A DNA stretch of 64,000 nucleotides from Gammaproteobacteria bacterium (GTDB lineage: Bacteria; Pseudomonadota; Gammaproteobacteria; Xanthomonadales; Wenzhouxiangellaceae), in NCBI GenBank assembly GCA_003565625.1, contig PXBD01000067.1:1-64000 (forward strand), written 5' to 3'. Shown piece by piece: positions 8,224 to 64,000 of the stretch; position 1 is the stretch's first letter; the number at the start of each line of letters is the position of its first letter. A program made the position numbers and the translations under genes. The notes under the pieces were generated by a model. The model was not told the origin of the DNA, made no database searches, and saw only the letters and a program-made list of their open reading frames with translations.

Positions 8224-8275
8224 CAGCGCAGGGAGGTGGTTACAATGGGAAATTGCCTTTCAGGAACCATCACCC

Positions 8276-10173: not shown

Positions 10174-10187
10174 CAAAGACACGTTCG

Positions 10188-23149: not shown

Positions 23150-23388
23150 TGAGTTTTGTTGGCTCCACGGAGTCGGCGAAGCAAAAAACACACGCTGATC
23201 GACACATGCTGCGGGGTTGCCCGTGTCGGCCCGGCCCCGAGAATCTCGGACCCGGCCCGGCACTACGGTTCGCGGCCATGGGATCAGCGGAGGCTCAAAC
23301 CCCGGACAAAGTGCGCACCATCGTCGCGGCGACCGCTCGGATTCGCCCGCCCGCGCCTTGAAGTCCAACGACAGGAAAGGAAACTGCA
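23150..23388 (+). promoter_or_regulatory. rpsB 5' leader (possible S2 autoregulatory RNA)
   Basis: The gene-free stretch between trhO and rpsB (23057-23388, 332 bases) holds only the rpsB promoter and this long leader. The leader is GC-rich with several imperfect inverted repeats, for example around 23221-23265 (GGCCCGGCCCCGAG facing CTCGGACCCGG). In E. coli and relatives the rpsB-tsf leader is bound by S2 to repress translation, so a similar role is inferred from position. AGGAAAGG-like sequence lies just before the ATG. Confidence 0.45.
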
Positions 23389-24468: not shown

Positions 24469-24519
24469 GCATCCGCCACGCACAGTTGTATTCAAGAGAA
24501 TTTTCGAGGAAGCAGAGCA

Positions 24520-25389: not shown

Positions 25390-25400
25390 CGGCGCCTGCC

Positions 25401-26117: not shown

Positions 26118-26205
26118 GCGCATATTTCCGGGCATGGCGCCTGTACGGCGATTACAATGCTCGGCTACGGCTGGACACAACCGCAGGGATTCAGAGAGGT
26201 AGACC

Positions 26206-26763
26206 ATGCTCAAGGAAATCAACGCCGAATCGGATGCGCGCATGGAAAAAAGCATCGCGGTGCTCAAGGCCGAGCTGGCCAAGATTCGCACCGGACGCGC
26301 CCACCCCAGTCTGCTCGAACACGTCACGGTCGATTATTACGGGTCGGAAGTTCCTCTCAACCAGGCCGCGAACATCAATGCCGAGGATGCCCGAACCCTG
26401 AGCGTGGTGCCGTTCGACAAGTCCATGGTCGGCAAGATCGAAAAAGCGATCATGACCTCCGATCTTGGGCTCAACCCGGCCACCGCCGGAGTCAATATCC
26501 GGGTACCGCTGCCGGCGCTGACCGAAGAGCGGCGCGCCGACCTGGCCAAGGTCGTCCACCACGAAGGTGAAAACGCCAAGATCGCCATCCGTAATATCCG
26601 CCGCGACGCCAACCACCAGCTCAAGGAGTTTCAGAAAGAAAAGGAACTCACCGAAGACGACGTGCGCCGCGGCGAAACCATGATCCAGCAGCTGACCGAC
26701 CGCTACACCGGCCAGGTCGACGAACTGGTTGCGGCAAAAGAAAAGGAATTGATGGAGATCTGA
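26206..26763 (+). CDS. frr: Ribosome recycling factor
   Basis: With EF-G it splits post-termination ribosomes. The 185-residue product shows the RRF core: [20 protein letters not shown] (about 29-48) and the C-terminal helical domain ([26 protein letters not shown]). The ATG has GAGGTAG upstream. It lies 88 bases after pyrH and ends two bases before uppS, leaving no room for dxr, which lies between these genes in E. coli. Confidence 0.97.
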
Positions 26764-26765
26764 GC

Positions 26766-27494
26766 GTGCCAGAACTGCCGCCCAGTCCTCATCATATCGC
26801 CATCGTCATGGATGGCAACGGGCGCTGGGCCATGCGTCGGGGCAAACCGCGTTCCTATGGGCACCAGGCCGGCAGCGAGGCGCTCAAGCGCACCGTCGAG
26901 GCGGTGATTCGGTGCGATGTGCCGGTTCTGACGGTGTTCGCCTTCTCGTGCGAAAACTGGCGCCGACCGCCGACCGAGGTCCGTAAACTGCTGGATCTGT
27001 TCCTGCGCGCGCTCAACAAGGATGTCCGGGAGCTGCACGAGCATGGCGTGCGGATCAACTTCATCGGCGAGCGCAGCGTGTTCAACCCCAGCCTGCGCGA
27101 AGGCATGGCCCAGGCCGAGCAGTTGACCTGCGGCAACCAGCGCCTGCAGCTCAACGTCGCGGTCAATTACAGCGGTCGCGCCGACGTGGTCGCAGCGGCC
27201 CGGCGCATCGCGGCCGCAGCAGCCACCGGTAACCTCGCCGCTGAGGACTTGACCGAGGCACGATTGAACGAGGAACTCACCCTGGCTCATTTGCCGCCAC
27301 CGGATCTGTTCATCCGCACCGGCGGTGAGAAACGCCTGTCGAACTTTCTGCTGTGGCAGATTGCCTACACCGAACTGCACTTCAGCGACGTCCTGTGGCC
27401 GGACTTCGGTGGCGACGCCCTGGAAGAAGCCCTGATCGACTTCGCTGGACGCGAGCGTCGCTTTGGTGGACTGAGTCGGGCCCGGAGTGCTTAG
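26766..27494 (+). CDS. uppS: Undecaprenyl diphosphate synthase (cis-prenyltransferase)
   Basis: Adds eight isopentenyl units to farnesyl diphosphate to give the C55 carrier for peptidoglycan and O-antigen synthesis. The 242-residue protein has the catalytic MDGNGRWAM (D16), the FSCENWRRP helix region (about 60) and RTGGEKRLSNFLLWQIAYTELHF (about 182-204). It starts at GTG and overlaps the GTG of cdsA by eight bases. Confidence 0.96.
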   Translation: MPELPPSPHHIAIVMDGNGRWAMRRGKPRSYGHQAGSEALKRTVEAVIRCDVPVLTVFAFSCENWRRPPTEVRKLLDLFLRALNKDVRELHEHGVRINFIGERSVFNPSLREGMAQAEQLTCGNQRLQLNVAVNYSGRADVVAAARRIAAAAATGNLAAEDLTEARLNEELTLAHLPPPDLFIRTGGEKRLSNFLLWQIAYTELHFSDVLWPDFGGDALEEALIDFAGRERRFGGLSRARSA

Positions 27495-28287
27495 GGCTCG
27501 CGTTCTTACCGCCATCGTGATGGTGGTCGCAGGCGCAAGCCTGTTGTTCCTGCTCCCGCCGCTGCCCTTTGCCATCGCCGCGGCCTTGCTTTTGCTGGGC
27601 GTGGGAGGACGTGAAGCCGGACGCCTGGCCGGCCTGGCCAACCCGATCCACTGGCTGGTCTATGCTGTCGCCCTGCTGAGCGCGGCAGCCACTCTCCATG
27701 CTGTCCTCGAGCCTGACCAACGCGAGCTGGTGCTCACGGCAAGCGCGCTGGCGTGGCTGGGCCTGATGCCGTGGCTGGCCCGGCCGGAGTTCGGGCGCCG
27801 GCGCACCGGGCTGAAGCTGGGAGCCCTGGCGCTGATTCTGCTGGGTGCCTGGCTGGCTCTGTCAGTCTTGCAGGCGCAGTCCCCGTGGCTGGTCGTGCTG
27901 CTCGTGGTGATCATTGCCGCGGCCGACATTGGCGCCTATTTCAGCGGCAAGACCATTGGCGGCCCCAAGCTCGCACCCCGTATCAGTCCCGGCAAAACCC
28001 GCGCCGGCGCTGCGGGTGGCCTGCTCGCAGCCACCATCGCCACCGTAATCGCCGTCAGCCTGCTGCCTGAGCGCACGTTCGCGCCGGCGCTGGCAGCCGT
28101 CCTGGGCCTGGTGCTGGCCGGGCTGTCAATCGGCGGTGATCTTTTCATCAGTCTGCTCAAGCGCCAGCAAGGCATCAAGGACTCCTCCTCGCTGCTGCCC
28201 GGCCACGGCGGGTTGCTGGATCGCTTCGACAGCCTCGGCGCCGCCCTGCCATTTTTTGCCCTGGCCTGGCTTTGGTGGGGCCAATGA
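27487..28287 (+). CDS. cdsA: Phosphatidate cytidylyltransferase
   Basis: Makes CDP-diacylglycerol, the substrate for PssA and PgsA, in the inner membrane. The 266-residue polytopic protein carries the CDP-transferase signature near the C-terminus: LLKRQQGIKDSSSLLPGHGG followed by LLDRFDS. Start is GTG within the uppS end. Its stop overlaps an ATG as ATGA, but the next gene expected in Pseudomonas and Xanthomonas, dxr, is missing. Confidence 0.95.
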   Translation: MLRARVLTAIVMVVAGASLLFLLPPLPFAIAAALLLLGVGGREAGRLAGLANPIHWLVYAVALLSAAATLHAVLEPDQRELVLTASALAWLGLMPWLARPEFGRRRTGLKLGALALILLGAWLALSVLQAQSPWLVVLLVVIIAAADIGAYFSGKTIGGPKLAPRISPGKTRAGAAGGLLAATIATVIAVSLLPERTFAPALAAVLGLVLAGLSIGGDLFISLLKRQQGIKDSSSLLPGHGGLLDRFDSLGAALPFFALAWLWWGQ

Positions 28288-28394
28288 GCGAACCATTTAC
28301 GCTCGATGCTGCCAATACAATGCGGTGCTCACGGGTCGAGGATAACGTGGCCGTTGATCCCATCAAGACTGACGAATCGGTATGGAACTGTTAG
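28284..28394 (+). CDS. Possible 36-codon ORF bridging cdsA and rseP
   Basis: An ATG overlapping the cdsA stop (ATGA) opens a 36-codon frame that ends at a TAG just after the rseP start. It has no recognised similarity, no hydrophobic segment and no separate Shine-Dalgarno. It may only be a chance frame, or it may serve to couple translation of rseP to cdsA. It shows no recognisable remnant of dxr. Confidence 0.2.
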   Translation: MSEPFTLDAANTMRCSRVEDNVAVDPIKTDESVWNC

Positions 28395-29752
28395 GTCCCG
28401 TTTTCTGGCTACTGGTTGCCCTGGGGCTGCTGGTGACCTTCCATGAGTTCGGCCACTTCTGGGTGGCCCGGCGTTTTGGTGTGCGCGTACTGACCTTCTC
28501 GGTGGGGTTCGGGCGCGCGCTGTGGTCGCGAACAGGCCGCGACGGCACCCGCTACCAGGTAGCAGCCATCCCGTTGGGGGGCTACGTCAGCATGCTCGAC
28601 GAGCGCGAGCAAACTGTGCCGGCCGGACAGCGCCACGAAGCCTTCAACCGCAAACCGGTAGGCCAGCGCATGGCCATCGTCGCCGCCGGGCCGGTATTTA
28701 ACCTGATTTTTGCCGTGGCCGCGTTCTGGCTGATGTTCGTGGTCGGCATACCCGAAACCCGGCCGGTGCTGGGCCCGACGACCGGACTGGCTGCAGAGGC
28801 CGGCCTGGAAGAAGGCGACATGATCGTGGCCGTCAACGGTCAGCGCACCGATTCCTGGACGCACGCGCTGCTCGGTCTGATGAAGCCCGCGCTGGATCGC
28901 CGCGATGTCGTCGTCGACATCGAGGATGGCGTCGGCAACCGGCGATCGGTGGAATTGCCCCTGACCCGGCTCGGCCCCGACTTTCGCGAAGAACAAACCC
29001 TGGAGTATCTCGGGTTAGAGCCCTGGCGTCCGGAACTGCCGCCGCTGATCGGGTTGATCAGCCCGGGATCGGCGGCCGACAGCGCTGGTCTCGAGGCCGG
29101 CGACCGCATCCGCAGTATTGGCGACTCGCAGGTCGAGGGTTGGCGTGACATCGCCCGCCTGATTCCGATCGAGGCGCTGGACGATCAGGGCAATGCCCGG
29201 CCCGTCCGTCTGGTGGTGGAGCGCAATGGCCGCCTGCTGGAGCGCGAGGTCACCCCGGCCATGGACCAGGGTCGGCCTATTATCGGGATCCAGGCACCGG
29301 AAGCCGACGCTTCGGCCCAGGCCGAGATGGATCGTGCTTTTGTCACCCTGCGCCATGGACCGGTCGAAGCCCTCGGCAAGGCCACCGAAGAAACCTGGCG
29401 CCTGACCACGGCAACCCTCGGCATCCTGGGCCGCATGGTCACCGGCAAGGCCTCGCTGAGCAACCTGTCCGGGCCGATCACCATTGCCCAGATGGCCGAT
29501 ACATCGGCCCGCCTGGGGCTGACCCGGTTTCTGTTTTTCCTCGGCTTGATCAGCCTGTCGCTGGCAATCATCAATCTGTTGCCCATTCCCATGCTCGACG
29601 GCGGTCACCTGCTTTACTATTGTGTCGAGTTGGTCAAAGGCTCACCGGTCTCCGATCAAACCCAGATCGCCGGACAGTACGTCGGCCTGATGATGGTGTT
29701 CGGCCTGATGGGTCTGGCCATATTTAACGATATCTTACGTCTGATCACCTAA
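28382..29752 (+). CDS. rseP: Site-2 regulated intramembrane protease RseP
   Basis: A zinc metalloprotease that cuts RseA within the membrane to release sigma-E and clears signal-peptide remnants. The 456-residue protein has HEFGH (21-25) in the first helix, two PDZ domains (about 120-200 and 210-300; LAAEAGLEEGDMIVAVNG and DSAGLEAGDRIRSIGD), and the second zinc site NLLPIPMLDGGHLLYY (about 398-413). Position before bamA is standard. Confidence 0.95.
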   Translation: MELLGPVFWLLVALGLLVTFHEFGHFWVARRFGVRVLTFSVGFGRALWSRTGRDGTRYQVAAIPLGGYVSMLDEREQTVPAGQRHEAFNRKPVGQRMAIVAAGPVFNLIFAVAAFWLMFVVGIPETRPVLGPTTGLAAEAGLEEGDMIVAVNGQRTDSWTHALLGLMKPALDRRDVVVDIEDGVGNRRSVELPLTRLGPDFREEQTLEYLGLEPWRPELPPLIGLISPGSAADSAGLEAGDRIRSIGDSQVEGWRDIARLIPIEALDDQGNARPVRLVVERNGRLLEREVTPAMDQGRPIIGIQAPEADASAQAEMDRAFVTLRHGPVEALGKATEETWRLTTATLGILGRMVTGKASLSNLSGPITIAQMADTSARLGLTRFLFFLGLISLSLAIINLLPIPMLDGGHLLYYCVELVKGSPVSDQTQIAGQYVGLMMVFGLMGLAIFNDILRLIT

Positions 29753-29801
29753 ACTGCGCGCCCAGTCAGGAGCATTTGCGGGGCCGCAACGGAAAGGATT
29801 C

Positions 29802-32231
29802 ATGAAATATCTCTGTCTTTTGCTCATCTTGCTGTGCGCCACGAGCCATGCTCAGGTCGAAACCTTCCGAATCGGCGACATTCGGGTGGAGGGGCTGCAG
29901 AGAATCTCCGAAGGCAACGTCTTCAGCTTTCTTCCGGTCGAGGTTGGTGATGAACTGACCGCAGCCTCCTCGCGCAGCGCCATTCGCGACCTCTACCGCA
30001 CCGGCTTTTTCAACGACATTTCCCTGCAGCGCGAAGGCGACACCCTGATCATCACGGTCGAGGAGCGTCCGGCGATCTCTGCCATCAGCATCAGCGGCAA
30101 CCGCCAGATCAAGACCGAGGACCTCATGCCCGCGCTGGCCGCCATCGGTATCGCCGAAGGCGAGATCTTCGATCAGCTCAGCCTCGACCGGGTGCGCCAG
30201 GAACTGGTGCGGCAATACTTTGGTCGCGGCTACTACGGCGTAGACGTCGATACCCGCATCAGCCGGCTGGCGCGCAACCGGGTCAGCCTGGCGATCGTCA
30301 TCGAGGAAGGCGACCAGGCCCGCATCCGCCACATCAATATCGTTGGCAACGAAAGCTTCAGCGAAAAGGAACTGCGGTCGGACTTCGAGTCGCACACCAC
30401 CCGCGGCCTGTTTTTCTGGCGCGGACGCAACCAGTACACCCGCGAAAAACTGTCCGGCGACCTCGAGGTGCTCAGATCGTTCTACCTCGACCGCGGCTTC
30501 ATCGATTTTGCCATCGAGTCGACCCAGGTCTCGATCAGCCCGGACAAGCAGGACATCTTTATCACCGCCAACATTCGCGAGGGCGAGGTCTTCACCGTCA
30601 ACGACGTGATCCTGACCGGTGACCTAATCCTGGCCGAATCCACCCTGCGCCAGCTGATCATGGTGCGGCCGGGCGGCAACTTCTCGCGCCGCGACATCGA
30701 GCAGAGCGTGGACAACATCTCCGCCATCCTGGCCAACATCGGCTACGCCTTCGCCAACGTCAATCCGGTACCGCGCATCGACCGGGAGACGCGCGAGGTC
30801 GAAATCAACTTCTTCATCGAACCGGGCAAACGAGTGTACGTGCGCCGGATCGAGTTTCAGGGCAACACCCAGACCAAGGATGAGGTCCTGCGCCGCGAAA
30901 TGCGCCAGTTCGAGGGTGGCTGGTTCTCGCAGGCCGCCCTGGACCGGTCCCGGTTGCGCATCCAGCGCCTGGGCTTCTTTGAAAACGTCAATATCGAAAC
31001 CAACCCGGTTGACGGGACCGAGGATCAGATCGACATCGTGGTCAGCGTCGAGGAGCAGCCGTCAGGCAGCTTCCAGGTGGGCCTGGGTTACTCGCAGATC
31101 CAGGGTCTGATCGCCTCGGTTTCGGTCGAGCAGGACAACTTCCTCGGTTCCGGACGACGGGTCGGGTTCTCGGTCAGCCGCAGCCGGATCCTCACCCAGA
31201 TCGGCTTGAGCTACACCAATCCGTTTTATACCGATGATGGAATCTCGCGCGGTTTCTTCCTGCGCTACACGGAATTCGACCAGGGTCGGGCCAATATCTC
31301 TTCGTTTTCGACCAGCCAGGCGGCGGCCGGCGTCAACTACGGCTTCCCGATCACCGAGCTGAGCTTTCTGCGCTTCGGTGCCTCGGCCCAGCGGGTCGAC
31401 ATCAACCTGCCCGGGGTCTTTGTCCCGCTTGATCCGGAAGACCCCAACAGTCCGATCGTGGTGCGGATTCCGGCCGACCGACCGCTGGGCATTTCCCTCG
31501 ATGAAGACGGCGATGGCTTTCTGTCGCGCAGCGAGCGGCGCATCACCACCTTCCGCTTTGATACCACCTGGTCACGCGACAACCGCAATCACTTTCTCAA
31601 CCCCACGCGCGGCTCGCTCAACCGCCTGAGCGCAGAAATTGCCGTGCCCGGCAGTTCGCGCGAGTTCTACAAGCTCACCTACCGCGGCCGCAAATTCTGG
31701 CCCATCGGCAACCGCATGGCTTTCAGCGTGCGCGGCGACGTTTCGTATGGAGACAGCTATGACAGCTACGACAGCGATCTGGGGCTGGAGCCGGTCGAAC
31801 CGGTGCGGCTGGCCGGCAACTGCCAGCTCGATGAAATCGTTACCATCGACCAAGGCCTGCCGTTCTACGAACACTTCTTCGGCGGCGGCGTGTCCGACAT
31901 TCGCGGCTTCGACGACAACTCGCTTGGACCCAAGGACCAGTTCTGTCGCTCGGTGGGGGGCGATTTCAAGGTCGTTCTGGGCACCGAACTGGCCTTCCCC
32001 ATTCCGTTCGTGGAGGCCCGCGGTACTCGCCTGGCCTGGTTCATCGACGTCGGTAACGTATTCCAGGACATCGATGCGTTTGATACCGAGCTGGTGCGCG
32101 CCTCGACCGGAATCTCGCTGACCTGGCAGGCGCCGATCGGCCCCATCATCATCAACCTGGCCACGCCGCTGAGAAAGCGCGATGGCGACGACACCCAGGC
32201 CCTGCAATTTACTTTCGGGCAGGTTTTCTAG
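29802..32231 (+). CDS. bamA: Outer-membrane protein assembly factor BamA
   Basis: The Omp85 core of the BAM complex that inserts beta-barrels. The 809-residue product has a signal peptide (1-18), five POTRA domains (about 20-415), and a 16-strand barrel with the conserved SDIRGFDDNSLGP (VRGF-type) loop and terminal Phe. A loop equivalent in order to extracellular loop L3 of E. coli contains DEDGDGFLSRSE (567-578), which meets the EF-hand calcium-loop pattern (D1, D3, D5, G6, L8, E12). That motif is unusual for BamA. Its lipoprotein partner bamD is at 49.8 kb. Confidence 0.96.
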   Translation: MKYLCLLLILLCATSHAQVETFRIGDIRVEGLQRISEGNVFSFLPVEVGDELTAASSRSAIRDLYRTGFFNDISLQREGDTLIITVEERPAISAISISGNRQIKTEDLMPALAAIGIAEGEIFDQLSLDRVRQELVRQYFGRGYYGVDVDTRISRLARNRVSLAIVIEEGDQARIRHINIVGNESFSEKELRSDFESHTTRGLFFWRGRNQYTREKLSGDLEVLRSFYLDRGFIDFAIESTQVSISPDKQDIFITANIREGEVFTVNDVILTGDLILAESTLRQLIMVRPGGNFSRRDIEQSVDNISAILANIGYAFANVNPVPRIDRETREVEINFFIEPGKRVYVRRIEFQGNTQTKDEVLRREMRQFEGGWFSQAALDRSRLRIQRLGFFENVNIETNPVDGTEDQIDIVVSVEEQPSGSFQVGLGYSQIQGLIASVSVEQDNFLGSGRRVGFSVSRSRILTQIGLSYTNPFYTDDGISRGFFLRYTEFDQGRANISSFSTSQAAAGVNYGFPITELSFLRFGASAQRVDINLPGVFVPLDPEDPNSPIVVRIPADRPLGISLDEDGDGFLSRSERRITTFRFDTTWSRDNRNHFLNPTRGSLNRLSAEIAVPGSSREFYKLTYRGRKFWPIGNRMAFSVRGDVSYGDSYDSYDSDLGLEPVEPVRLAGNCQLDEIVTIDQGLPFYEHFFGGGVSDIRGFDDNSLGPKDQFCRSVGGDFKVVLGTELAFPIPFVEARGTRLAWFIDVGNVFQDIDAFDTELVRASTGISLTWQAPIGPIIINLATPLRKRDGDDTQALQFTFGQVF

Positions 32232-32255
32232 CAGACGATGGTGTAAATTGGCCGC

Positions 32256-32816
32256 ATGCTTGGGTTCGCGCATGCCACGCCTGGATTTCTGAAACTGCCC
32301 GCGCGGCTGCGCGCGGGGCTCGCCATGCTTGCTCTGCTGGCAGGCGGCGCAGCAGCAGCCGACGGCATGCAAATCGGCTATGTCGACATGAAGCGCCTGT
32401 TCGACACCGCACCGCAAGTAGTGGCCGCGCGCGAAGCCCTGGACGGCGAGTTTCGTCCCCGCAACGAAGCACTGATGACCGACGAGGCGCGGCTGGAAAG
32501 CATGCGGCAGGCCCTGGACGAAACCGGCCGGCTCGACGCCGAGCAGCGTTTTGAACTCGAGCGCGACGTGCGCAATCTGCGCCGCTCGATCGAACGGCGG
32601 CGCGAAGATTTGCGGGAGGAGCTGCGTTTTCGCACCGGCGCGGCCACCAAGGCACTTGAAGAGACCATCGAGGTGGCGGTCCGCCAGGTCGCCGAGGCCC
32701 ATGGCTACGACCTGATCCTGACCAGCCCGGTCGCCTACGCAGCGCCCACCATCGACATCACCGACCGCATTCTCGACTGGCTGGCCGAGGATTTCGCCGA
32801 CCGCTCGGAGCGTTGA
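32256..32816 (+). CDS. skp: Periplasmic chaperone Skp/OmpH family
   Basis: Holds unfolded outer-membrane proteins in the periplasm for BAM. The 186-residue product has a signal peptide (to about residue 35, ending GGAAAA-DG), the N-terminal strand IGYVDMKRLFDTAPQ, a long charged coiled coil (about 65-140) and the C-terminal YDLILTSPVAYAAPTIDITDRIL typical of OmpH proteins. It sits directly after bamA. The N-terminus is long and a start at a later codon is possible. Confidence 0.88.
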   Translation: MLGFAHATPGFLKLPARLRAGLAMLALLAGGAAAADGMQIGYVDMKRLFDTAPQVVAAREALDGEFRPRNEALMTDEARLESMRQALDETGRLDAEQRFELERDVRNLRRSIERRREDLREELRFRTGAATKALEETIEVAVRQVAEAHGYDLILTSPVAYAAPTIDITDRILDWLAEDFADRSER

Positions 32817-33868
32817 CCGTGGAACCCGGTGCCCGCACTTTCCGCCTGGAGGAACTGGCTGCTGCACTCGGCCTGGAACTGAGGGGCGAAGCCGGCCGCG
32901 CCATTCGCAATGTTGCGACACTGGAGAAAGCGGGTCCGGATGATGCCGCCTTCCTGGCCAATCCCGCGTATCGCCCGTTGCTGGCCTCGACCGAGGCCGG
33001 TGCGGTGCTCATGCAGGCCGAACAGGCCCGGCACTTTACCGGCAACGTTTTGATCAGCGCCAATCCCTACGCCGACTGGGCGCGGCTGATCGAGTATCTG
33101 CGCCCGCAGCCCTCCCAAACGCCCGGCGTTCATGCCAGCGCAATCATCGCGGCCGACGCCGAAATCGGCGACGGGGTCAGCATCGGCGCCCTGACCGCCA
33201 TCGGCTCGGGCGCGCGCATCGGGGTGAACGTGGTCATTGGCCCGGGCTGCGTGATCGGCGACGGGGTAGAAATCGGCGCCGACAGCCGCCTGGTCGGCCA
33301 GGTCTACATCGATGCGGCTGCCCGCCTCGGCCGTCGGGTGGTTGTCCACCCCGGTGTCGTGATCGGCTCTGACGGTTTCGGCCTGGCCATGGCGCAAGGC
33401 CGCTGGCGCAAGGTGCCGCAGATCGGCAGCGTACGAATTGGTGATGATTGCGAAATCGGCGCCAATACGACAATCGATCGCGGGGCCATCGAGGACACCG
33501 TGCTGGCCGAAGATGTGCGCATCGACAACCAGGTCCAGATCGCCCACAACGTGCACATCGGCGCCCACACCGCCATTGCCGGCTGCGTGGGCATTGCCGG
33601 CTCGACCCGGATCGGGCGCTATTGCATGATCGCCGGGGCCAGCGGCATCGCCGGCCACCTCGAAATCTGCGATTCTGTCATTATTACGGCCATGAGCACC
33701 GTGCTGGACTCCATCGACCAGCCGGGCGAATATGGATCGGGCATCCCGGCCCGTCCACACGGACGCTGGAAGCGTTTGCTGGTTCGCCTGGGCCAGCTCG
33801 ACGACTGGGCGCGGCGACTGCGGCGCGTGGAACAATCGAACAACAAGGAACCCACCCGGCATGACTGA
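32813..33868 (+). CDS. lpxD: UDP-3-O-(3-hydroxyacyl)glucosamine N-acyltransferase
   Basis: Adds the second acyl chain in lipid A synthesis. The protein of about 350 residues has an N-terminal uridine-binding domain and a left-handed beta helix of hexapeptide repeats (about 105-300); HPGVVIGSDGFG and IAHNVHIGAHTAIAG contain the conserved catalytic/acyl-binding region. The start is TTG at 32813 (overlapping the skp stop) or GTG at 32819; they differ by two residues. It ends eight bases inside fabZ. Confidence 0.94.
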   Translation: MTVEPGARTFRLEELAAALGLELRGEAGRAIRNVATLEKAGPDDAAFLANPAYRPLLASTEAGAVLMQAEQARHFTGNVLISANPYADWARLIEYLRPQPSQTPGVHASAIIAADAEIGDGVSIGALTAIGSGARIGVNVVIGPGCVIGDGVEIGADSRLVGQVYIDAAARLGRRVVVHPGVVIGSDGFGLAMAQGRWRKVPQIGSVRIGDDCEIGANTTIDRGAIEDTVLAEDVRIDNQVQIAHNVHIGAHTAIAGCVGIAGSTRIGRYCMIAGASGIAGHLEICDSVIITAMSTVLDSIDQPGEYGSGIPARPHGRWKRLLVRLGQLDDWARRLRRVEQSNNKEPTRHD

Positions 33869-34328
33869 CCCCAAGACCGTGGACATCGAGGGCATCCTCG
33901 ATCTGCTGCCCCACCGTTATCCATTCCTGCTGGTCGATCGGGTACTGGATTTCGATCTGGCCGCGCCGCCGCGCATCCGCGCGCTGAAAAACGTCACCTT
34001 CAACGAACCGTTTTTCCAGGGTCATTTTCCCGGCCACCCGGTAATGCCCGGGGTTCTCATCCTGGAAGCCATGGCCCAGGCAGCCGGATGCCTCGCCCAC
34101 CTGGCCCGCTCTGCCGAAACCGCCGGACGTCAGCTCTACTACCTGGTCAAGATCGACAAGGCCCGCTTCTCCCGGATCGTGGTGCCCGGGGATCAGTTGG
34201 TCTTCGAAGTCGAACAGAAACGCCTGATGCGCAACATGGGGGTCTATGAGGCCCGTACCCGCATCGGCGACAAGACCGTCGCCAGCGCCGAATTGATGTG
34301 TGCCGCCAAACCCGATCCGGCGCAATGA
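33861..34328 (+). CDS. fabZ: 3-hydroxyacyl-ACP dehydratase FabZ
   Basis: A hotdog-fold dehydratase of fatty acid elongation. The 155-residue product contains LPHRYPFLLVDRV with the catalytic His (about 17-29) and FFQGHFPGHPVMPGVLILEAMAQ (about 53-75) with the catalytic Glu. The ATG lies inside the lpxD end, and the stop overlaps the lpxA ATG (ATGA). Placement between lpxD and lpxA lets it share 3-hydroxyacyl-ACP flux with lipid A synthesis. Confidence 0.96.
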   Translation: MTDPKTVDIEGILDLLPHRYPFLLVDRVLDFDLAAPPRIRALKNVTFNEPFFQGHFPGHPVMPGVLILEAMAQAAGCLAHLARSAETAGRQLYYLVKIDKARFSRIVVPGDQLVFEVEQKRLMRNMGVYEARTRIGDKTVASAELMCAAKPDPAQ

Positions 34329-35095
34329 TTCATCCCACCGCGATCATCGAGGCGGGAGCGAAAGTTGCGGCCGAGGTCGAAATCGGACCCTATGCCATCA
34401 TCGGTCCGGAAGTGGAGATCGATGCAGGCTGCTGGATCGGTCCGCATGTGATCGTTACCGGTCGAACCCGGATCGGCCCCGACAACCGCATTTTTCAGTT
34501 TGCCTCGATTGGAGACGAACCCCAGGACAAGAAATTTGCCGGTGAAGCCTCGGCGCTGGAAATCGGCCGCGGCAACACCATCCGCGAATACGTCAGCATC
34601 AACCGCGGCACCGCCGACGGCGGCGGGATCACCCGACTGGGCGATAACAACTGGATCATGGCCTACTGCCATATTGCCCATGACTGCCAGGTCGGATCGC
34701 ACGTCATCATGGCCAACGGCGCCACTCTGGCCGGGCATGTCCGCGTCGGCGATCATGTCATTTTCGCCGGCTACTCCGGTGCGCACCAGTTCTGCAGCAT
34801 CGGCGATCACGCTTTTCTCGGCATGTACGGCGGCGTCAGCCAGGACGTTCCAGCCTACGTCATGGTCTCCGGCCAACCACCGCGGCCGCGTGGCATCAAC
34901 AGTGAGGGCTTGAAGCGACGCGGCTTCACGGCCGAACAGATTCGCAATATCCGCGAGGCCTACCGGCTGATCTACCGCAGCGGCAAGAGCCGCGACGAGG
35001 CACTGCTAGAGCTGGAAACGCGCCTTGCCGACCAGCCCGAGCTCCAACAGATGATCGACAGCGCGCGCGCGAGCACTCGCGGCTTGTTGCGCTGA
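34325..35095 (+). CDS. lpxA: Acyl-ACP-UDP-N-acetylglucosamine O-acyltransferase
   Basis: First step of lipid A synthesis. The 256-residue hexapeptide-repeat protein starts MIHPTAIIEAGAKVA and has the family motifs NTIREYVSINRGT (about 83-95), IMAYCHIAHDCQVGSH with the catalytic His (about 115-130), and FLGMYGGVSQDVPAYV. The C-terminal helical region is complete. Confidence 0.96.
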   Translation: MIHPTAIIEAGAKVAAEVEIGPYAIIGPEVEIDAGCWIGPHVIVTGRTRIGPDNRIFQFASIGDEPQDKKFAGEASALEIGRGNTIREYVSINRGTADGGGITRLGDNNWIMAYCHIAHDCQVGSHVIMANGATLAGHVRVGDHVIFAGYSGAHQFCSIGDHAFLGMYGGVSQDVPAYVMVSGQPPRPRGINSEGLKRRGFTAEQIRNIREAYRLIYRSGKSRDEALLELETRLADQPELQQMIDSARASTRGLLR

Positions 35096-35109
35096 CGGCC
35101 AGGCCGTTC

Positions 35110-36267
35110 ATGCCCGCACAAGCGCCGCTGCGCCTGGTTCTGGTCGCCGGCGAGTTGTCCGGCGACCTGCTCGGCGCCGACCTGGCCCGAGCGCTGAGGA
35201 ATCGTTACCCAAGCATCGAAATGGCCGGCATCGCCGGGCCGGCCATGGAGGCAGCCGGGGTCGAACCCTGGTTCGACATCGAAACGCTCAGCGTCATGGG
35301 ACTGGCTGAGGTGCTGCGTCATCTGCCGCGCCTGGTCGGTTTGCGCCGGACGCTGCGCCGGCGCATTCTGGAGTGGCCGGCGACCGCGCTGGTGACCATC
35401 GATGCGCCGGATTTCAACCTCGGTCTGGCCCGCCAGGTTCGCGCCCGTGGACTGTGCACCATCCATTACGTGTCGCCCTCGGTGTGGGCCTGGCGCGCCG
35501 GACGCATCCCCCGCATCGCCCGATCGCTTGACCTGTTGCTGACCCTGTTTCCATTCGAACCACCGCTGTACCAGCCCTACGGTTTGGACGCGCGTCATGT
35601 AGGGCACCCGCTGGCTGATGCGCTGGCGGCCGGACCGGATCGGGAATCGGCCCGCAAAGCCCTGGCGCTGGAGCCCACAGCCAGCGTGATCGCCCTGCTG
35701 CCGGGCAGTCGCGACGGCGAGCTGAAACGCCACGTCGGCCTGCTGGCGGAAACCGCCCAGCGGTTGCGCCGTGACCGGCCCGAGGCCGAACTGATCATGC
35801 TGCTGACCAGTGAACGGCATCAGGAAATGGCACGCTCGCTGGCCGGGCCAGCACTCGCGGCGGCCGGGGTGCAAGGGTTGGTCGACCTGACCCGCAGCGG
35901 ACTGGCCGCGGCTGACCTCGCCATCGCAGCCTCCGGCACGGTCACCCTGGAGGCATTCCTGCTGGAGTGCCCCCTGGTCGTGCACTACCGCATGGCACCG
36001 AGCACTTACCACCTGGCTCGGGTGCTGCGCCTGGTCCGTTCACGTCACGTATCCCTGCCCAACATCCTGCTCAACCAGAGCCTGGTGCCGGAACGTCTAC
36101 AGGCAGAAGCCACGCCCGAACGACTGGCGCGCGACGCCGCCGACTGGCTGGATCACCCGCAGCGAGTGGAGCAATACCGCGGCCACGCCCGGACATGGCG
36201 CCACAAGCTGGCGCGCCAGGCCGGTGAGCGGGCGGCCGACGCCATTCTGGAGCGTCTCGGTGCCTGA
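35110..36267 (+). CDS. lpxB: Lipid-A-disaccharide synthase
   Basis: A GT19 glycosyltransferase joining UDP-2,3-diacylglucosamine and lipid X. The 385-residue product has [20 protein letters not shown] (about 11-30), [12 protein letters not shown] (about 96-107), [14 protein letters not shown] (about 119-132) and [14 protein letters not shown] (about 196-209). It overlaps rnhB by eight bases. Confidence 0.95.
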
Positions 36268-36874
36268 GCCAGTGACGGAGCGGCCGGGAAGACGCGGCTT
36301 CAACAGCCCGCTGATCGCCGGCGTCGATGAAGCCGGCCGCGGCCCGCTGGCCGGCCCGGTCGTGGCCGCAGCCGTCATCCTCGACGGGCGCCGCCCGATC
36401 GTCGGACTGGCAGATTCCAAAACCCTGCGACCGGACCGACGCCGGCATCTTGCCGACCAGATCCGCGAACGCGCACTCGCTGTCGAAGTGCGCGTCATCG
36501 AAGCCGGGGAAATCGATCGGATCAATATCCTGCAGGCCACGCTCAAGGCAATGCGCCTGGCCATCGAGGCGCTGGATCCGGAACCGCTGCTGGTCAGGGT
36601 CGACGGCAACCGTGCGCCCGCAGTGGCGGTGCCGGTGCAGACCGTGGTCGGTGGCGATGCCAGCGATCGCGCCATTGCCGCGGCCAGCATCATCGCCAAG
36701 ACCCATCGTGACGAGTTGATGCTGGAATGGCATGACCGCTACCCGGAGTACGGCTTTGATCGGCACAAGGGCTATCCGACACCCGAACATCGGCGACTGC
36801 TGGAGCAACTGGGGCCCTGCCCGGCCCACCGGCAAAGCTTTCGCCCGGTGATCCAGGCGCGCTTGTTCGAATAG
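36260..36874 (+). CDS. rnhB: Ribonuclease HII
   Basis: Removes ribonucleotides from DNA and cleaves RNA in RNA-DNA hybrids. The protein of about 204 residues has [17 protein letters not shown] with the first acidic residues (about 22-38), and [12 protein letters not shown] near 135. Start chosen at the GTG overlapping the lpxB stop; an in-frame ATG 36 bases earlier is also possible. It closes the rpsB-rnhB cluster; dnaE, which often follows, is absent. Confidence 0.93.
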
Positions 36875-58519: not shown

Positions 58520-60550
58520 TTACACGGTCACCGCGTTCCCGCGGAAAATCCGGGCCAGGTAGCGACTCTGGCTCGGACTGACCGCCGGCACGCAGCACAG
58601 CATGACGGCCTGGACAATGCGCTCCATCTCTTCGGCCATTTCCTGGTCGTTACTGGGCTCCTCGGCATGGGCCCGCCGGGTCAGCTGGACCTGATTGACG
58701 GCCGGTTCGGTCGGCAGTCGCTCTCCTTCGACGCCAAGCGTGACCGTGAAGGCATGCAGCGAGTTCTTGATGAACAGGGCCAGGGCAAACTCTTCACGGG
58801 TCGATGCACGGGAAGTCTCCGGGGTCACCAGAACGATCTGGCAACGCGGCATCAGCGCGCACTTGCGGGCAACGCGAAAGTGATGCGTCAATTGCTCATC
58901 GAGCAGACGGGCAAAGGCATCGCGCGACAGCACCCGATCCCAGCTCTCGCCGGCCTCGGCAGCCAGCGGGTTCATTGGCAAGCGGGCAAACGGCGTGCTG
59001 ACCACCGCGTCGATGCGACCGGTCTGACCGCGAACCGCATCAAGCCCGGCCTCAAGCTCCTCGCCAACGGCCTGAACGCCAACGACCGTGCCCGGACCGG
59101 GCGCCTCGATGCACGCACGCAGCGCCTCGGCAGTCTCCGCGCTTTTGGTGAGCAGGGTCAGGCTGCCGACCGACTGCTCCAGCAGGCCGTGGGCAATGGC
59201 GACAAGTTCATCGCGCAGGGCCTCACCGATCAACACCACGTGGCGTCCGGCCAGTTGCTGCAAATCCTCGGCGCCCGGGCGCAACAGCATCTCGCCCTCG
59301 GTAACCGAGCGGTCAAACTTCAGCCCGCCCGACGGATGGAAGGTTTCGCCGCTGACGATTTCATCGGCAAGACTGAACACGGTCGACAGCGCCACCTGCT
59401 CGTCGGTCGGCATCCTGTGCAGGTGAAGACGGTCGAGAATGCCGACTTCGATCTTCTGTGCGGTGCGCTCGATATCCCGCGCATCGAAAAAATCACCTTC
59501 CGGCGGCGGCGTGAACACCTCAAGGAAATGCCCGCCCTGAGCGGCGTCGAGGGCGCCGCCACCGACCAGCCGGTTGATCAGCTTTTCGGCCAGCGGCCGC
59601 GACAACAGGTAGCGCGTGGCCGCGGCCTCCGGGCGACCCTCGCCGACCTGGGCGGCCAGTCGGCGCAGCGCTTCCGGGGCGCCATCCCAGGCGGCCAGCC
59701 CTTCCACCACGTTGGCGGCAAGGCGCTGGAGAATCTCGCCACCGTCGGTTCCCTCCAGGCTTGCCAGCAGAGCTTCGTGGACGCGGTTGAGACGTTTGTT
59801 TTCCAGGATCAGCCGGCCGCGCCGGGCGAACAGACCAGGCGCTCCGCCGAGGCCACGCAAGCGTGCTCCGTCGACCGGACCCGGCGCCATGGCGTTGATC
59901 TGGATTTCCGGCCCGAGGTGACGCGAGAGGATCTCGGCCAGGGCCCGCTGCCCGGCCTTGGAGACGGAATAATCGGCCCGATTGGGATAGGCCACGGCCA
60001 GGTACTTCTCGCCGCCAAAGTAGCTCGACACATTCAGGATACGACCCGCGCCCTGTTGCTTCATGCGCGGGGCGAACTTGCGGATCAATGACCAGTTGGA
60101 GGTCAGGTTGGCCTCCAGGGTGTGGTTCCAGGCCTCGAGGGTCATGTCAACCACCATTTCCTCGGCTCCTGAAACCCCGGCATTGTTGATCAGGTAATCG
60201 ACCTCACCGAAAATTTCCAGAGAATGATCGAACAACTGCTGCAGCTGTTGCTCGTCACCAACATCGATACCGGCAAGGATATGCACCCGGTGTTCGCAGT
60301 CGGGGTAACCGATGGCCTCGAGCTCGGCGACGATGCCGGCGCGCGCCTCGGCAAGCTTGGTCTCGCTGCGCGCATCAGCAGCACCCGGGCGCCGGCCATC
60401 GCCAGGTAGCGCCCCAGCTGCAGGCCGATACCGAGGCTGCCACCGGTAGTCACCGCCACCTTGCCCTGGTGCAGACCAGGCAGCACGCGCTGGATCGAAT
60501 ACGGCATCGCCGATTTCCCGGTCGCGCGCCGGATGCTCTTGGGCACCCAC
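58520..60550 (-). CDS. Malonyl-CoA reductase C-terminal open frame as read
   Basis: The frame opens at 60550 but matches the family only from ARSETKLAEA (60373) onward. Its first 59 or so residues are out of frame. Read alone it lacks the TGGSLGIG NADPH loop, so a separately translated product could not form the malonyl-CoA-reducing site. The rest (HILAGIDVGDE; INNAGVSGAEEMV; LTHHFRVARK; FALALFIKNSLHAFT) is intact. Confidence 0.75.
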   Translation of the reverse strand: MGAQEHPARDREIGDAVFDPARAAWSAPGQGGGDYRWQPRYRPAAGALPGDGRRPGAADARSETKLAEARAGIVAELEAIGYPDCEHRVHILAGIDVGDEQQLQQLFDHSLEIFGEVDYLINNAGVSGAEEMVVDMTLEAWNHTLEANLTSNWSLIRKFAPRMKQQGAGRILNVSSYFGGEKYLAVAYPNRADYSVSKAGQRALAEILSRHLGPEIQINAMAPGPVDGARLRGLGGAPGLFARRGRLILENKRLNRVHEALLASLEGTDGGEILQRLAANVVEGLAAWDGAPEALRRLAAQVGEGRPEAAATRYLLSRPLAEKLINRLVGGGALDAAQGGHFLEVFTPPPEGDFFDARDIERTAQKIEVGILDRLHLHRMPTDEQVALSTVFSLADEIVSGETFHPSGGLKFDRSVTEGEMLLRPGAEDLQQLAGRHVVLIGEALRDELVAIAHGLLEQSVGSLTLLTKSAETAEALRACIEAPGPGTVVGVQAVGEELEAGLDAVRGQTGRIDAVVSTPFARLPMNPLAAEAGESWDRVLSRDAFARLLDEQLTHHFRVARKCALMPRCQIVLVTPETSRASTREEFALALFIKNSLHAFTVTLGVEGERLPTEPAVNQVQLTRRAHAEEPSNDQEMAEEMERIVQAVMLCCVPAVSPSQSRYLARIFRGNAVTV

Positions 60551-62160
60551 AGGTTGATCGGGTCCATGCGGCGCACGCGGTTGTTCAGCGTTGCGGTCCA
60601 GTCGGCGGCAAAGGCGAGGTTATCCGGCTCGTTGTTGTCAAAGCGCACGATCTGGTTGGGCCGCGAACTCCACCTGCGCTCGCCCCTTTGGCAGGCGTGC
60701 TCCTCCTCATGGCGCCAGGTGCGGATCAGTTCTTCGACCGCGGCCCGCTTGATGTCGTTGAGCCGGTTGCCGTGACCGTCGTCGGAGTTGGTAACGAAGG
60801 TGATCGCCGGCGCCCGCTCCAGGTTCATGCGCCGGCCCAGACTGCGCGCCAGCGCCGCAGCAAAAGCCACCGGTGCGACGATCTCGTTGTCGACAAAGGT
60901 GGCCACTTCCTGATCGGTTGCGGTACTGCGCGAGTGACCATGCTCCCCGTTGCGTTTGCCGGGCAGCACAATCCCCCCGTCGAGACGTCCGAAGTGATCT
61001 TCAACGAACTGGAAGGCCCGGTCGACCGACTCCTCCCGCAAGGGGTCGAGATGGGTCAGCTTCACGCGTCTTTCGGCATCGTTGCCCAGCCGGGCGCGGG
61101 CCTGGCCGATTTCTTCCAGGGAGCGGAAAGCCAGCATCACCGTGGCACCGCGGTCGCGGTTGCGCCCGGCGAAAGCCAGGGCTTCGTCGATATCGGCACC
61201 ACCCAGGATCATGACCACACGGTCGCGCAGATCCACCAGACGATTATCAGGCCAGGAAACGAGTTTCGAGCGGCTCTGGGCCGGCACCTGCATGCCGTTG
61301 GTCACCTCGAAGGCATGACCGGAGAAGGCATCGGCCTCAGGGGTCGAAAGCCACAGCAGCGTATTGGCCACGTCGGCCGGGCGCGGATAAATGAAATTCA
61401 TGTTGCCGTCGGCGTCCGGGCGACGGTTGAGCATCAGGCCCTTGAACCCGGCGGCCGTACTACCCGGCTCCAGTTTCTGCAGCGAATCCATGGCCCGGAA
61501 CACGGTATCAATGCGCTCGGACTCAATCGGGCCGGGGAAGACCGTATTGACCCGAATCCCGCGCTCGCCTGCTCCCAGTTCCCGGGCCAGCCCCCTGGAA
61601 AAGGCATTGAGGCCGGATTTGGGCACCGCATAGGGAATCCGGCCAAAGTAGGGAGTGCGCGAGAAAATCGTCGAAACGTTAAGGATCGCCCCGCCCGGGG
61701 CCAGGTGCGGCACCGCTGCCCGCGCCATGTTCCAGGGCCCTCCGAGCAGGTTCATCGCGGCCTGAAACATGGTCTCACCATCGCCGCTGGCCCGGGCCTG
61801 GGCAGTGGTGAACGGAATCTTTTCCAGGGTCTGTTTCGGTCCCGCGCCACCCGCGTTGTTGATCAGCACGTCGAGGCGACCGAACCGCTCCAGGGTCTCA
61901 CCGACAATGACCCGACCGGCCTCGGGATCCGCCGAATCCCCGGCAACCGCGTGCATCGCAGCCGGCCTGAAGCCCTCGCCGGAGAGGGTCTGACAGAAGG
62001 CATCGAGCTTGTCTGGATTGCGTCCGGTCATGACCAGGTTGGCGCCCTCGCGCAGCAGGGTGCGGGCGATGTGGGTACCGATATTGCCGGCCGCGCCGGT
62101 CAGAATCACGGTCCGTCCGGCCAGGCGGTCCCCGGCTTGCGATCGAGTGGTTTGGTTCAT
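60190..62160 (-). CDS. Malonyl-CoA reductase N-terminal open frame as read
   Basis: The 656-codon frame is genuine up to Met596; the last 60 or so residues (from RAARPSLPRR) are out of frame. It includes the whole N-terminal half, which in the Chloroflexus enzyme reduces malonate semialdehyde to 3-hydroxypropionate, so this part alone could still be active. It also carries the glycine-rich NADPH loop of the C-terminal half, cut off from the rest of that domain. Confidence 0.8.
   Translation of the reverse strand: MNQTTRSQAGDRLAGRTVILTGAAGNIGTHIARTLLREGANLVMTGRNPDKLDAFCQTLSGEGFRPAAMHAVAGDSADPEAGRVIVGETLERFGRLDVLINNAGGAGPKQTLEKIPFTTAQARASGDGETMFQAAMNLLGGPWNMARAAVPHLAPGGAILNVSTIFSRTPYFGRIPYAVPKSGLNAFSRGLARELGAGERGIRVNTVFPGPIESERIDTVFRAMDSLQKLEPGSTAAGFKGLMLNRRPDADGNMNFIYPRPADVANTLLWLSTPEADAFSGHAFEVTNGMQVPAQSRSKLVSWPDNRLVDLRDRVVMILGGADIDEALAFAGRNRDRGATVMLAFRSLEEIGQARARLGNDAERRVKLTHLDPLREESVDRAFQFVEDHFGRLDGGIVLPGKRNGEHGHSRSTATDQEVATFVDNEIVAPVAFAAALARSLGRRMNLERAPAITFVTNSDDGHGNRLNDIKRAAVEELIRTWRHEEEHACQRGERRWSSRPNQIVRFDNNEPDNLAFAADWTATLNNRVRRMDPINLWVPKSIRRATGKSAMPYSIQRVLPGLHQGKVAVTTGGSLGIGLQLGRYLAMAGARVLLMRAARPSLPRRAPASSPSSRPSVTPTANTGCISLPVSMLVTSNSCSSCSIILWKFSVRSIT
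60371..60376 (-). other. Frameshift site in mcr
   Basis: The minus strand reads CTG-ATG-CGCGCAGCGAG; the family needs CTG-(A/ATG)-GCG-CGC-AGC-GAG. Inserting one G after ATG joins LLM to ARSETKL. There is no homopolymer slippery run of the A-AAA-AAG type; the context is ATGCGCGC. Confidence 0.8.
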
Positions 62161-64000
62161 CGTAGAGTTCCTGCCGAGCCGGTATCAATCCGGCGGAGTT
62201 CAACGCCCTCGGCCTCTGCCTCACGCAGGGCCCAGGCCCGGTAGAGTTCGTCGCGGGTCTTCAGCCCGGTGCGCGGCAACCCGTGAGTCGCAACGTAGGT
62301 TGCGCCCGCATGCCGGTTGTCCCACATGGCCTGGTGGGCTGAGGGCAACTCGCCCAGCGGCACCGGCACCGGTTCGACCACGTCGATCATGCCGGCCGCG
62401 ATGCGCTCCTGCACCTCGGCATATTCGCGCGCCGTATTCAGGTGGGTGCCAAGAATCTCGGTGGTCGGCATCAAAATCCGGCGCTGGCGCATCCAGACTT
62501 GCGGGGCATAAAAGCTGAACCGGCGCCCGGCGAGGTTCTCCGCATAGACCACCGAGCCCACGGTCGGCTTGACCAGGGCCGTGGCCAGGGCAAGTCCGTC
62601 CCGGCCGGCCCGTTCAAACACCACGTCGGGCAAACCGCGACGGTCGAGGGTATTGCGCAGCAGCGGGCCAACGGCCGAGCCGATCGGCTTGAGCGTGCGG
62701 CCGGAGAAACGGCGCACGGCTTCCTTGAATTCGGCCGATTCGGTAAAGGGATCGGGCAGGCCCTGGAACGGTCCGGGTGGATCAAAGTCCCGGCCCAGGC
62801 GGCGCTGAATCTCCTGCAGGCTGACCACGCCGGCAAGGTTGGCACCGAAACCCAGCGAGGTCACGAACTCGCGCTGCGCCACCGTATCGCTGAGCACCGC
62901 CACCCGGGCGCCGCGAGCGCAACCGGCCTCGATGGCCTCAACCGCCACCGGATCGACGATGCCGTCGTCGGAACCGGGCCCGTAGATCACCAGCAAGGAC
63001 TTGCCGGCCCGAAGGCCCGCGCGGGCAAGCATCAGATCGGCCTTCTCCGCGCCCGGCTTGCCCAGGAACGAGAAACGATAGCCGGAAGTGGCACCGAAAA
63101 ACGTCAGCACGCCGCCCTCACCAAGTAACTGGAACGAGCGCGAAAAAGCACGTTCGCCGGCATGGGAGACCACGTAATCGATCGGCCCGCCCGCCTGGGC
63201 GTTGACTTCGGCAACATAGTCATCGCCGGCCCGTTCCCAGGCCTCCCATTGCCCCGGATCATCGGGTACCGGCGCAAAGATGTCGGCGAACCTCGGATCC
63301 TTGCGATTGACCGCCCCGCCGCCGAAGCTGCGCACGCGCTCGGCGCGTTCACCGCTGGACACCATGCCGACCACTTCCAGGCCGGCACGACCCGCAGCAC
63401 GCAGGCACTCCAGGCCAGTACCGGTCGCGGCACCCTCCACAAACAGCCGGCGGCTGGGCTGAATATCGAGCGTGCGAAACAGGGCGCGATGGATGGTGCC
63501 CTGGGTCAGCCCGCTGGCCGCGGCTTGTTCAATCGTCAGGCCCGGCAGTTTCGGATGTAACTGCGGACCCTGCACAACCAGGAACTGGGCGTGCGAGCCG
63601 TCGTTGACCTCATAGCCCTGAATGTGGAAATCGGCCGCCATCGGATCCAGGCCCTGGTCCGGAGAAAGCAACTCGCTCTGGCCGGAGTAAATCGTCACCA
63701 GCTGGCCCACCGCCAGCCGGCCCTCGCGGACCAGTTCCTGGCCCAGCTGGGCGATCAGCGCCACACCGCCCGATCCGGTCACCTGCAGGTCGGCGTCACG
63801 GGCGTCGAACGGCGAGACCGGAATACCGGTGATGGCCCAGATGTCGTTGAAATTGACTTCGGAGGCGAGCACGTAGACCAGGGCCTCGTTGGGGCCGGGC
63901 CTGGGGGTCTTGAACACCAGGCATTTCTCGGCATCCTGCGGCTCCCCGTGCGCCGGCAGCGCCGTTGCCGGATCCTTGATCACGCCCATGCCGTACTGGT
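62157..64000 (-). CDS. pcs: Acryloyl-CoA reductase domain, probably the C-terminal part of propionyl-CoA synthase (runs off the right edge)
   Basis: A zinc-independent medium-chain dehydrogenase/reductase related to crotonyl-CoA carboxylase/reductase: ASEVNFNDIWAITGIPVSPFD near the N-terminus, IQGYEVNDGSHAQFLVV, the NADPH loop FVEGAATGTGLE, and LTFFGATSGYRFSF. The frame is open to the window end (Q-Y-G before the first Met at 63989), so a longer protein is likely. In propionyl-CoA synthase this reductase is the last of three domains after an acyl-CoA synthetase and an enoyl-CoA hydratase. A stand-alone reductase of about 610 residues from 63989 is the alternative. It overlaps mcr by ATGA, which ties both to the 3-hydroxypropionate route. 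Confidence 0.75.
   Translation of the reverse strand, partial: QYGMGVIKDPATALPAHGEPQDAEKCLVFKTPRPGPNEALVYVLASEVNFNDIWAITGIPVSPFDARDADLQVTGSGGVALIAQLGQELVREGRLAVGQLVTIYSGQSELLSPDQGLDPMAADFHIQGYEVNDGSHAQFLVVQGPQLHPKLPGLTIEQAAASGLTQGTIHRALFRTLDIQPSRRLFVEGAATGTGLECLRAAGRAGLEVVGMVSSGERAERVRSFGGGAVNRKDPRFADIFAPVPDDPGQWEAWERAGDDYVAEVNAQAGGPIDYVVSHAGERAFSRSFQLLGEGGVLTFFGATSGYRFSFLGKPGAEKADLMLARAGLRAGKSLLVIYGPGSDDGIVDPVAVEAIEAGCARGARVAVLSDTVAQREFVTSLGFGANLAGVVSLQEIQRRLGRDFDPPGPFQGLPDPFTESAEFKEAVRRFSGRTLKPIGSAVGPLLRNTLDRRGLPDVVFERAGRDGLALATALVKPTVGSVVYAENLAGRRFSFYAPQVWMRQRRILMPTTEILGTHLNTAREYAEVQERIAAGMIDVVEPVPVPLGELPSAHQAMWDNRHAGATYVATHGLPRTGLKTRDELYRAWALREAEAEGVELRRIDTGSAGTLR

Follow-up and report, generated by a model that had tools for sequence, protein, structure and literature searches.

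Among the closest described systems to the locus analyzed here are partial 3-hydroxypropionate routes whose key enzymes are propionyl-CoA synthase (PCS) and malonyl-CoA reductase (MCR). In the portions available of the reports cited with these systems and further below, Porphyrobacter ULC335 and Erythrobacter NAP1 are presented as aerobic anoxygenic phototrophs without a full fixation pathway, for which CO2 co-assimilation was proposed and in which the genes are upregulated by day (PMC10674011); MCR and PCS were noted in Alpha- and Gammaproteobacteria, with the HP/HB cycle proposed for Luminiphilus metagenome-assembled genomes (MAGs) (PMC9802188); and an opposite partial bicycle lacks both MCR and PCS (PMC6593406). 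Here, we analyzed a 64,000-nt stretch of DNA (the window; G000:C30:1–64000) from a 74,344-base contig of a bin that is of Wenzhouxiangellaceae type (2.81 Mb, 95 contigs, 89.5% complete), where G labels denote the 398 genomes of an order sample (G000 being our own genome) and L labels denote individual loci or stretches. The window carries the end of a PCS gene overlapping an MCR gene. We consider it probable that this pair is a horizontally spread carbon operon, mostly a companion of anoxygenic phototrophy, which here sits in a Wenzhouxiangellaceae-type genome as an open branch with a methylcitrate exit and in an interrupted copy.

The PCS and MCR identities, which a sequence-only reading of the window had proposed, are real, and the corresponding activities are predicted from them; the E-values exclude chance matches. 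Residues 2–595 of the ORF at 62157–63998(−) aligned with residues 1252–1845 (of 1,850) of PDB 6eqo (702 bits, E = 5.8e-210), which we take to be the Erythrobacter PCS and which the PDB lists as "acetyl-coenzyme A synthetase." The same reading had called this gene an acryloyl-CoA reductase type: the reductase identity stood, but a stand-alone reductase gene was rejected, as the ORF forms the 3′ part of a PCS gene extending beyond the window to C30:67521, where the ligase and hydratase portions that it had suggested seeking beyond position 64,000 were indeed located. In the PCS homologue of G072 (L009), a genome of the same family (99% complete), the acetate-CoA ligase (residues 398–824), hydratase (855–1041), and crotonyl-CoA reductase-like (1219–1512) domains follow one another, and our PCS pieces cover its residues 7–123 and 136–1815 (tblastn), so that ligase, enoyl-CoA hydratase, and acryloyl-CoA reductase can be traced in one chain via the homologue and these pieces.

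The MCR gene spans 58520–62160(−), i.e., 3,641 bp, as expected for a protein of ~1,200 residues, and contains two glycine motifs (TGaaGNIG and TGGSLGIG) and two short-chain dehydrogenase/reductase (SDR) catalytic motifs (YAVPK and YSVSK). It matches PDB 8hjw as well as 8hi4, the latter presumably an MCR and labeled "short-chain dehydrogenase/reductase SDR" in the PDB listing. The match to the Chloroflexus-type enzyme had been described as running along the whole length; both pieces are in fact collinear with the intact MCR of G072 (79% identity over residues 1–595 for the N-terminal piece and 77% over residues 597–1212 for the C-terminal piece; tblastn), but they are two ORFs in different frames, a break that had gone unnoticed. 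The ATGA overlap between the two genes was confirmed (Table 1).

Table 1. Coordinates of the features of the PCS–MCR locus (window positions; C30 marks contig positions past the window)
Feature	Position	Strand	Basis or remark
PCS, C-terminal (acryloyl-CoA reductase) third	62157–63998	−	PDB 6eqo match; Pfam ADH_zinc_N; gene runs beyond the window
MCR, N-terminal piece	60190–62160	−	PDB 8hi4, 473.8 bits; Pfam adh_short; TGaaGNIG and YAVPK motifs
MCR, C-terminal piece	58520–60550	−	Other frame; Pfam adh_short_C2; YSVSK motif
ATGA stop/start overlap, PCS stop with MCR ATG	62157–62160	−	ORF coordinates, 4 bases
MBL-fold gene, thioesterase-like	C30:67549–68568 (longest ORF)		Directly upstream of PCS

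Scanning a single genome for each species returned 339 PCS relatives, the best 80 of which (named loci, with taxon names as given by the depositors) were used for locus counts. MCR lies directly 3′ of PCS in 61 of these and elsewhere in the locus in 4, while 8 have none despite at least 3 kb of room and 7 end at the contig end; tblastn matches likewise leave zero gap between PCS and MCR in L017, L019, L020, L023, L024, L025, L026, and L072. The 80 loci come from Halieaceae, Woeseiaceae, Steroidobacteraceae, Sphingomonadaceae, Rhodopila, Gemmatimonadota, Myxococcota, Chloroflexota, and others. Within the order sample, PCS (E ≤ 1e-60) was found in only 6 of 398 genomes, namely ours, G223, G072, G016, G034, and G025. 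G223 (65% complete) belongs to our genus, its PCS is 89% identical, and its match is the same as L041, deposited as Wenzhouxiangella sp., which agrees with the gammaproteobacterial host supposed earlier. A 43-row tree built from 41 named loci picked from the 80, our own, and G025 mixes phyla; our PCS, L041, and L072 form a clade (support 100/100), adjacent to which a weakly supported group (83/88) comprises Woeseiaceae and L048. None of the eight genes flanking our module lies close to PCS, either in G072 or in the 80 named loci. The patchy occurrence, the phylum-mixing tree, and the unshared flanks support horizontal movement of PCS–MCR as a unit, in line with the transfer suggested by the sequence-only reading. 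Base composition gave no sign of transfer, with a module GC content of 65.9% against 62.8–66.3% in the 10-kb windows of the contig (module included).

The pair tracks anoxygenic phototrophy at large, but not in our genome as assembled, so that the photoheterotroph link drawn earlier stands for the first part only. Type II reaction-centre genes (PF00124) were found in 40 of the 48 genomes tested from among the 80 named PCS loci, and specifically in 37 of 39 whose locus includes MCR, in 2 of 6 without MCR (both Chloroflexota), and in 1 of 3 where the contig end cuts the locus (MCR-in-locus versus MCR-absent groups, Fisher p = 0.0014, kinship not corrected). In the order sample, 11 of 398 genomes have a reaction centre, 6 have PCS, and 4 have both (Fisher p = 4.7e-6, kinship likewise not corrected), the PCS carriers with pufL/pufM being G072, G034, G016, and G025. 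No physical linkage of PCS to a photosynthesis cluster was seen, as nothing in the 80 PCS loci matched the longest ORFs taken from three puf loci (L103–L105).

Within our family, pufL/pufM-type genes are present in G134, G158, and G193 (our genus) as well as in G051, G065, G072, and G079 (loci L101–L107), and further photosynthesis-like genes were read by eye around them in G072 and G193. BchH was found in G065 and G079, and no BchH match was obtained in the reaction-centre genomes G072, G051, G134, G158, and G193. A BchH-like gene of G223 was rejected as evidence of phototrophy: it is only 31–42% identical (aligned stretches) to BchH of G079, G016, and G034, which are 60–94% identical to one another. 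From its divergence (about 32% identity to related BchH), this gene (L127, G223:C303) probably lies on a foreign contig in the bin. Photosynthesis genes in Wenzhouxiangellaceae (phototrophy, bacteriochlorophyll, pufM) were not found described in the literature searched; a soda-lake Wenzhouxiangella MAG with proteorhodopsin is reported in the available part of PMC8880816.

How might the pair work? Acetyl-CoA carboxylase, for which two short carboxyltransferase frames, taken for AccA and AccD, are candidates, would supply malonyl-CoA; MCR would reduce it with 2 NADPH to 3-hydroxypropionate, and PCS would activate, dehydrate, and reduce the latter with 1 NADPH to propionyl-CoA. Both reactions are general knowledge for the two families. 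PCS–MCR would then form an open branch that runs in one direction and serves to co-assimilate CO2 and dispose of reductant, rather than a bicycle, the direction of flux being presumed. Directly upstream of PCS lies a metallo-beta-lactamase (MBL)-fold gene (Table 1), which has a counterpart 5′ of PCS in 6 of the 80 named loci (L017, L018, L019, L020, L023, and L072), some others having no upstream room. The HxHxDH motif of its product is intact, and an AlphaFold model (pLDDT 84, seven sequences) has ST1585 and PqsE as nearest structures, the latter labeled 2-aminobenzoylacetyl-CoA thioesterase in PDB entries; such likeness does not fix the substrate. The protein is probably an acyl-CoA thioesterase, which would clear stray CoA esters by hydrolysis.

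Since no classical methylmalonyl-CoA mutase was found in our genome (PF01642 matched there only in split form, within a long frame), propionyl-CoA would most likely leave through the methylcitrate cycle in this lineage, i.e., reach pyruvate via PrpC, AcnD, PrpF, and PrpB. All four genes exceed their NCBIfam cut-offs in our genome (PrpC, 647 bits, and PrpB, 506 bits, on C61; AcnD, 1,701 bits, and PrpF, 685 bits, on C50), representing the AcnD/PrpF form of the cycle, so that propionyl-CoA-metabolizing genes, whose absence would have spoken against the sequence-only reading, are present. In G072, PrpB is likewise over its cut-off, with a PrpC-like ORF read by eye beside it. The mutase that our genome does encode is IcmF-like (PDB 4xc6, 1,024 bits; NF045497, 1,327 bits, below the cut-off of 1,500 because the contig end cuts the gene). 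This fused mutase gene (L125 5988–9180, G000:C40) is near leucine dehydrogenase-like and acyl-CoA dehydrogenase-like genes, both named by eye. The IcmF split pattern recurs in all 13 PF01642-matching genomes among the 15 of the family, including the 99%-complete G072, with ours the only one typed; G223 and G158 have no match. Full-length classical-type matches occur in the f5 genomes G004, G016, and G034. Among the 41 of 80 named PCS genomes covered by the PF01642 test, grouped by frame length and coverage, 29 have a full-length classical type, 6 the IcmF pattern only (one of them also with a 74-position fragment), 4 pieces or other types, and 2 none. The candidate propionyl-CoA carboxylase (PCC) is of doubtful type: the one large carboxyltransferase of our genome lies beside biotin carboxylase-type and hydratase-type ORFs, a gene order that reads as methylcrotonyl-CoA carboxylase (MCC), with no model over its cut-off.

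We also offer, as a tentative and on balance unlikely extension drawn from gene content, the idea that Wenzhouxiangellaceae and several Woeseiaceae have putatively connected the 3-hydroxypropionate branch with the methylcitrate cycle in place of methylmalonyl-CoA, converting acetyl-CoA and CO2 via propionyl-CoA to pyruvate without decarboxylation or B12 and, in reaction-centre carriers, with light as the driving force. For purple bacteria, PMC8307300, in the part available, presents the components of this combination next to one another, gives three propionyl-CoA exits, including methylmalonyl-CoA and methylcitrate, and names no organism that combines the 3-hydroxypropionate branch with the methylcitrate cycle; an engineered "new to nature" acetyl-CoA-to-pyruvate pathway is described in PMC11599936. 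If true, the idea would add a natural, oxygen-tolerant, carbon-conserving acetyl-CoA-to-pyruvate route, for which lineages without detected methylmalonyl-CoA mutase would be natural test cases.

Several observations weigh against the reading of a phototrophy-associated open branch with a methylcitrate exit. The Fisher tests ignore kinship, and three of the 48 PF00124-tested genomes (L020, L041, and L072) are also counted in the order sample. In our bin, the search for photosystem and rhodopsin genes that the sequence-only reading had called for yielded nothing, with no match to a reaction centre (PF00124, 0 matches), BchH, or rhodopsin. Within our genus, PCS occurs in G000 and G223 and the reaction centre in G134, G158, and G193, never together in the sample. 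In the PDB, the large carboxyltransferase best matches an entry labeled propionyl-CoA carboxylase (9tps, 842 bits; compare AccD1, 829; MCC 3u9r, 812; other PCC entries, 265 and less). The NCBIfam model names PrpC a bifunctional methylcitrate/citrate synthase; AcnD is over its cut-off in 6 of 19 genomes but not in G072; and 14 of the 15 family genomes, mostly without PCS, have PrpB over its cut-off, which makes the methylcitrate genes unspecific. Because PrpB is there regardless of PCS, the methylcitrate cycle belongs to the family in general; the operon may draw on it, but its presence does not prove coupling. Isocitrate lyase is also over its cut-off, beside a malate synthase-like frame, and therefore acetate use need not depend on the operon. 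Finally, the frame changes may mean that our copy is without any activity.

These frame changes, three in all, interrupt both genes: one near 60373 in MCR and two in PCS, both past the window, within about 65.87–65.93 kb and 67.16–67.20 kb of the contig, with residues 7–123, 136–579, and 546–1815 of the G072 PCS matching in three frames (tblastn). The copy is either mis-sequenced or just lost. We slightly favor an intact operon with indels introduced by sequencing or assembly, which would be compatible with the reading preferred above. In G072, G034, and G016, the copies are single ORFs, and the G223 fragment (residues 349–1689) is in one frame. Moreover, broken copies turn up in some other assemblies: of the 80 named loci, 68 have a full-length PCS in a single frame, 8 a partial one, and 4 one that spans several frames (L061, L066, L074, and L089); for MCR, 54 loci have it at full length in a single frame, 9 in part, and 2 split over two frames (L030 and L065), and in 15 none was found. 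Three of the frame-changed copies (L030, L065, and L089) sit in genomes with reaction-centre genes, so frame breaks are not limited to non-phototrophs. The pieces of our copy are open and collinear, with no stop codons found inside the four compared pieces, and are as constrained as in G223: with G072 as outgroup (PCS pieces only), substitutions at codon positions 1 + 2 versus 3 numbered 89:217 on our branch and 98:222 on that of G223. These codon-position patterns indicate little relaxed selection and therefore point to sequencing indels or very recent loss. Against indels stands the fact that all 20 chosen neighboring genes are full length (NCBIfam), with no frame change in their 24.8 kb.

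That same contrast speaks for a decaying remnant, in which a phototrophic ancestor had a working module, the reaction centre was lost in the lineage, and PCS–MCR would now be a pseudogene of recent origin: under random placement, the fall of all three frame changes into the module (about 9.0 kb) and none into the neighbors (24.8 kb) has P = 0.019. However, the neighbors were hand-picked, mostly housekeeping genes (including lptG) out of the 62 predicted ORFs of the contig, a set biased towards genes that must stay intact. Decay would also fit the rarity of broken PCS elsewhere, the missing puf, BchH, and rhodopsin genes, and, with G034 as outgroup, a small excess of first- and second-position changes on our branch (308:473) versus G072 (288:575). 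No such excess is seen versus the nearer relative G223, the pieces contain no stops, and at 89.5% completeness the missing photosynthesis cluster can be an assembly gap; we regard decay as possible but rather unlikely.

Quite improbable, in our view, is that PCS assimilates external 3-hydroxypropionate or acrylate while MCR is oxidative or idle. Loci that carry PCS but lack MCR were seen in Aneurinibacillus, Fluviicoccus, and two MAGs (one Blastocatellia, one gammaproteobacterial), and haloarchaeal plasmids encode PCS-like proteins, in one case with no MCR annotated in the vicinity, but the tight PCS–MCR pairing and the phototroph bias argue for the reductive direction. The complete, autotrophic 3-hydroxypropionate bicycle is rejected as extremely improbable, for although both key enzymes are present and PMC9802188, in the part available, proposes the bicycle in some Burkholderiales MAGs, neither a classical mutase nor a full-length malyl-CoA lyase (Mcl, HpcH/HpaI) was found in our genome or in G072, the carboxylase is doubtful, and the only lyase match in our genome (24.5 bits, cut-off 25) lies inside a 569-codon frame taken for malate synthase.

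The haloarchaeal PCS-like proteins are spread over 7 plasmid records; in one (L155, Natrinema zhouii plasmid, 5389–10842), the surroundings of the gene include an MBL-fold gene together with a B12 mutase pair and a TPP enzyme, and no MCR is annotated there. Elsewhere in the window, a t44 RNA family match just 5′ of rpsB (23171–23299, [+] strand) and a housekeeping run at 23389–36874 (rpsB, tsf, pyrH, uppS, rseP, bamA, lpxD, fabZ, lpxA, lpxB, and rnhB) are ordinary.

With reaction-centre genes in 37 of 39 tested genomes that have MCR in the locus, the PCS–MCR pair appears as a portable accessory of anoxygenic phototrophy over several phyla, and light-driven CO2 co-assimilation in photoheterotrophs can be tested as a general rule instead of standing as an anecdote. 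A PCS–MCR pair in Wenzhouxiangellaceae was not found described, with no search aimed at exactly that combination and subscription journals largely uncovered; the sought pathway terms are absent from PMC10100682 and PMC3679898, and the available parts of PMC10576062 and PMC12174138 hold nothing decisive here.

Compared with known systems, our locus shares the MCR and PCS steps with the bicycle of Chloroflexus aurantiacus but differs in having no detected classical mutase or Mcl and a doubtful PCC; the reductase domain of our PCS is 55–57% identical to that of Chloroflexota loci. The key enzymes PCS and MCR are likewise those of the partial route of Erythrobacter NAP1 and Porphyrobacter (available part of PMC10674011), whereas our locus belongs to a Wenzhouxiangellaceae-type bin without a reaction centre, has an MBL gene before PCS and interrupted genes, and is accompanied by no classical mutase that we could find. 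Five Halieaceae loci (NOR5-3, Luminiphilus NOR5-1B, HTCC2080, Pseudohaliea, and Chromatocurvus) have a reductase domain 68–77% identical, MCR directly 3′, and a reaction centre in all five genomes; these differ in having a full-length classical-type mutase match and no MBL match in the loci. Four Woeseiaceae MAG loci (L017, L018, L019, and L023) have a reaction centre and, unlike ours, no frame changes seen (the MCR of L017 is cut by a contig end), and L017 has a classical-type mutase; L018, L019, and L023 share with our genome the IcmF pattern only, and all four have the same MBL–PCS–MCR order.

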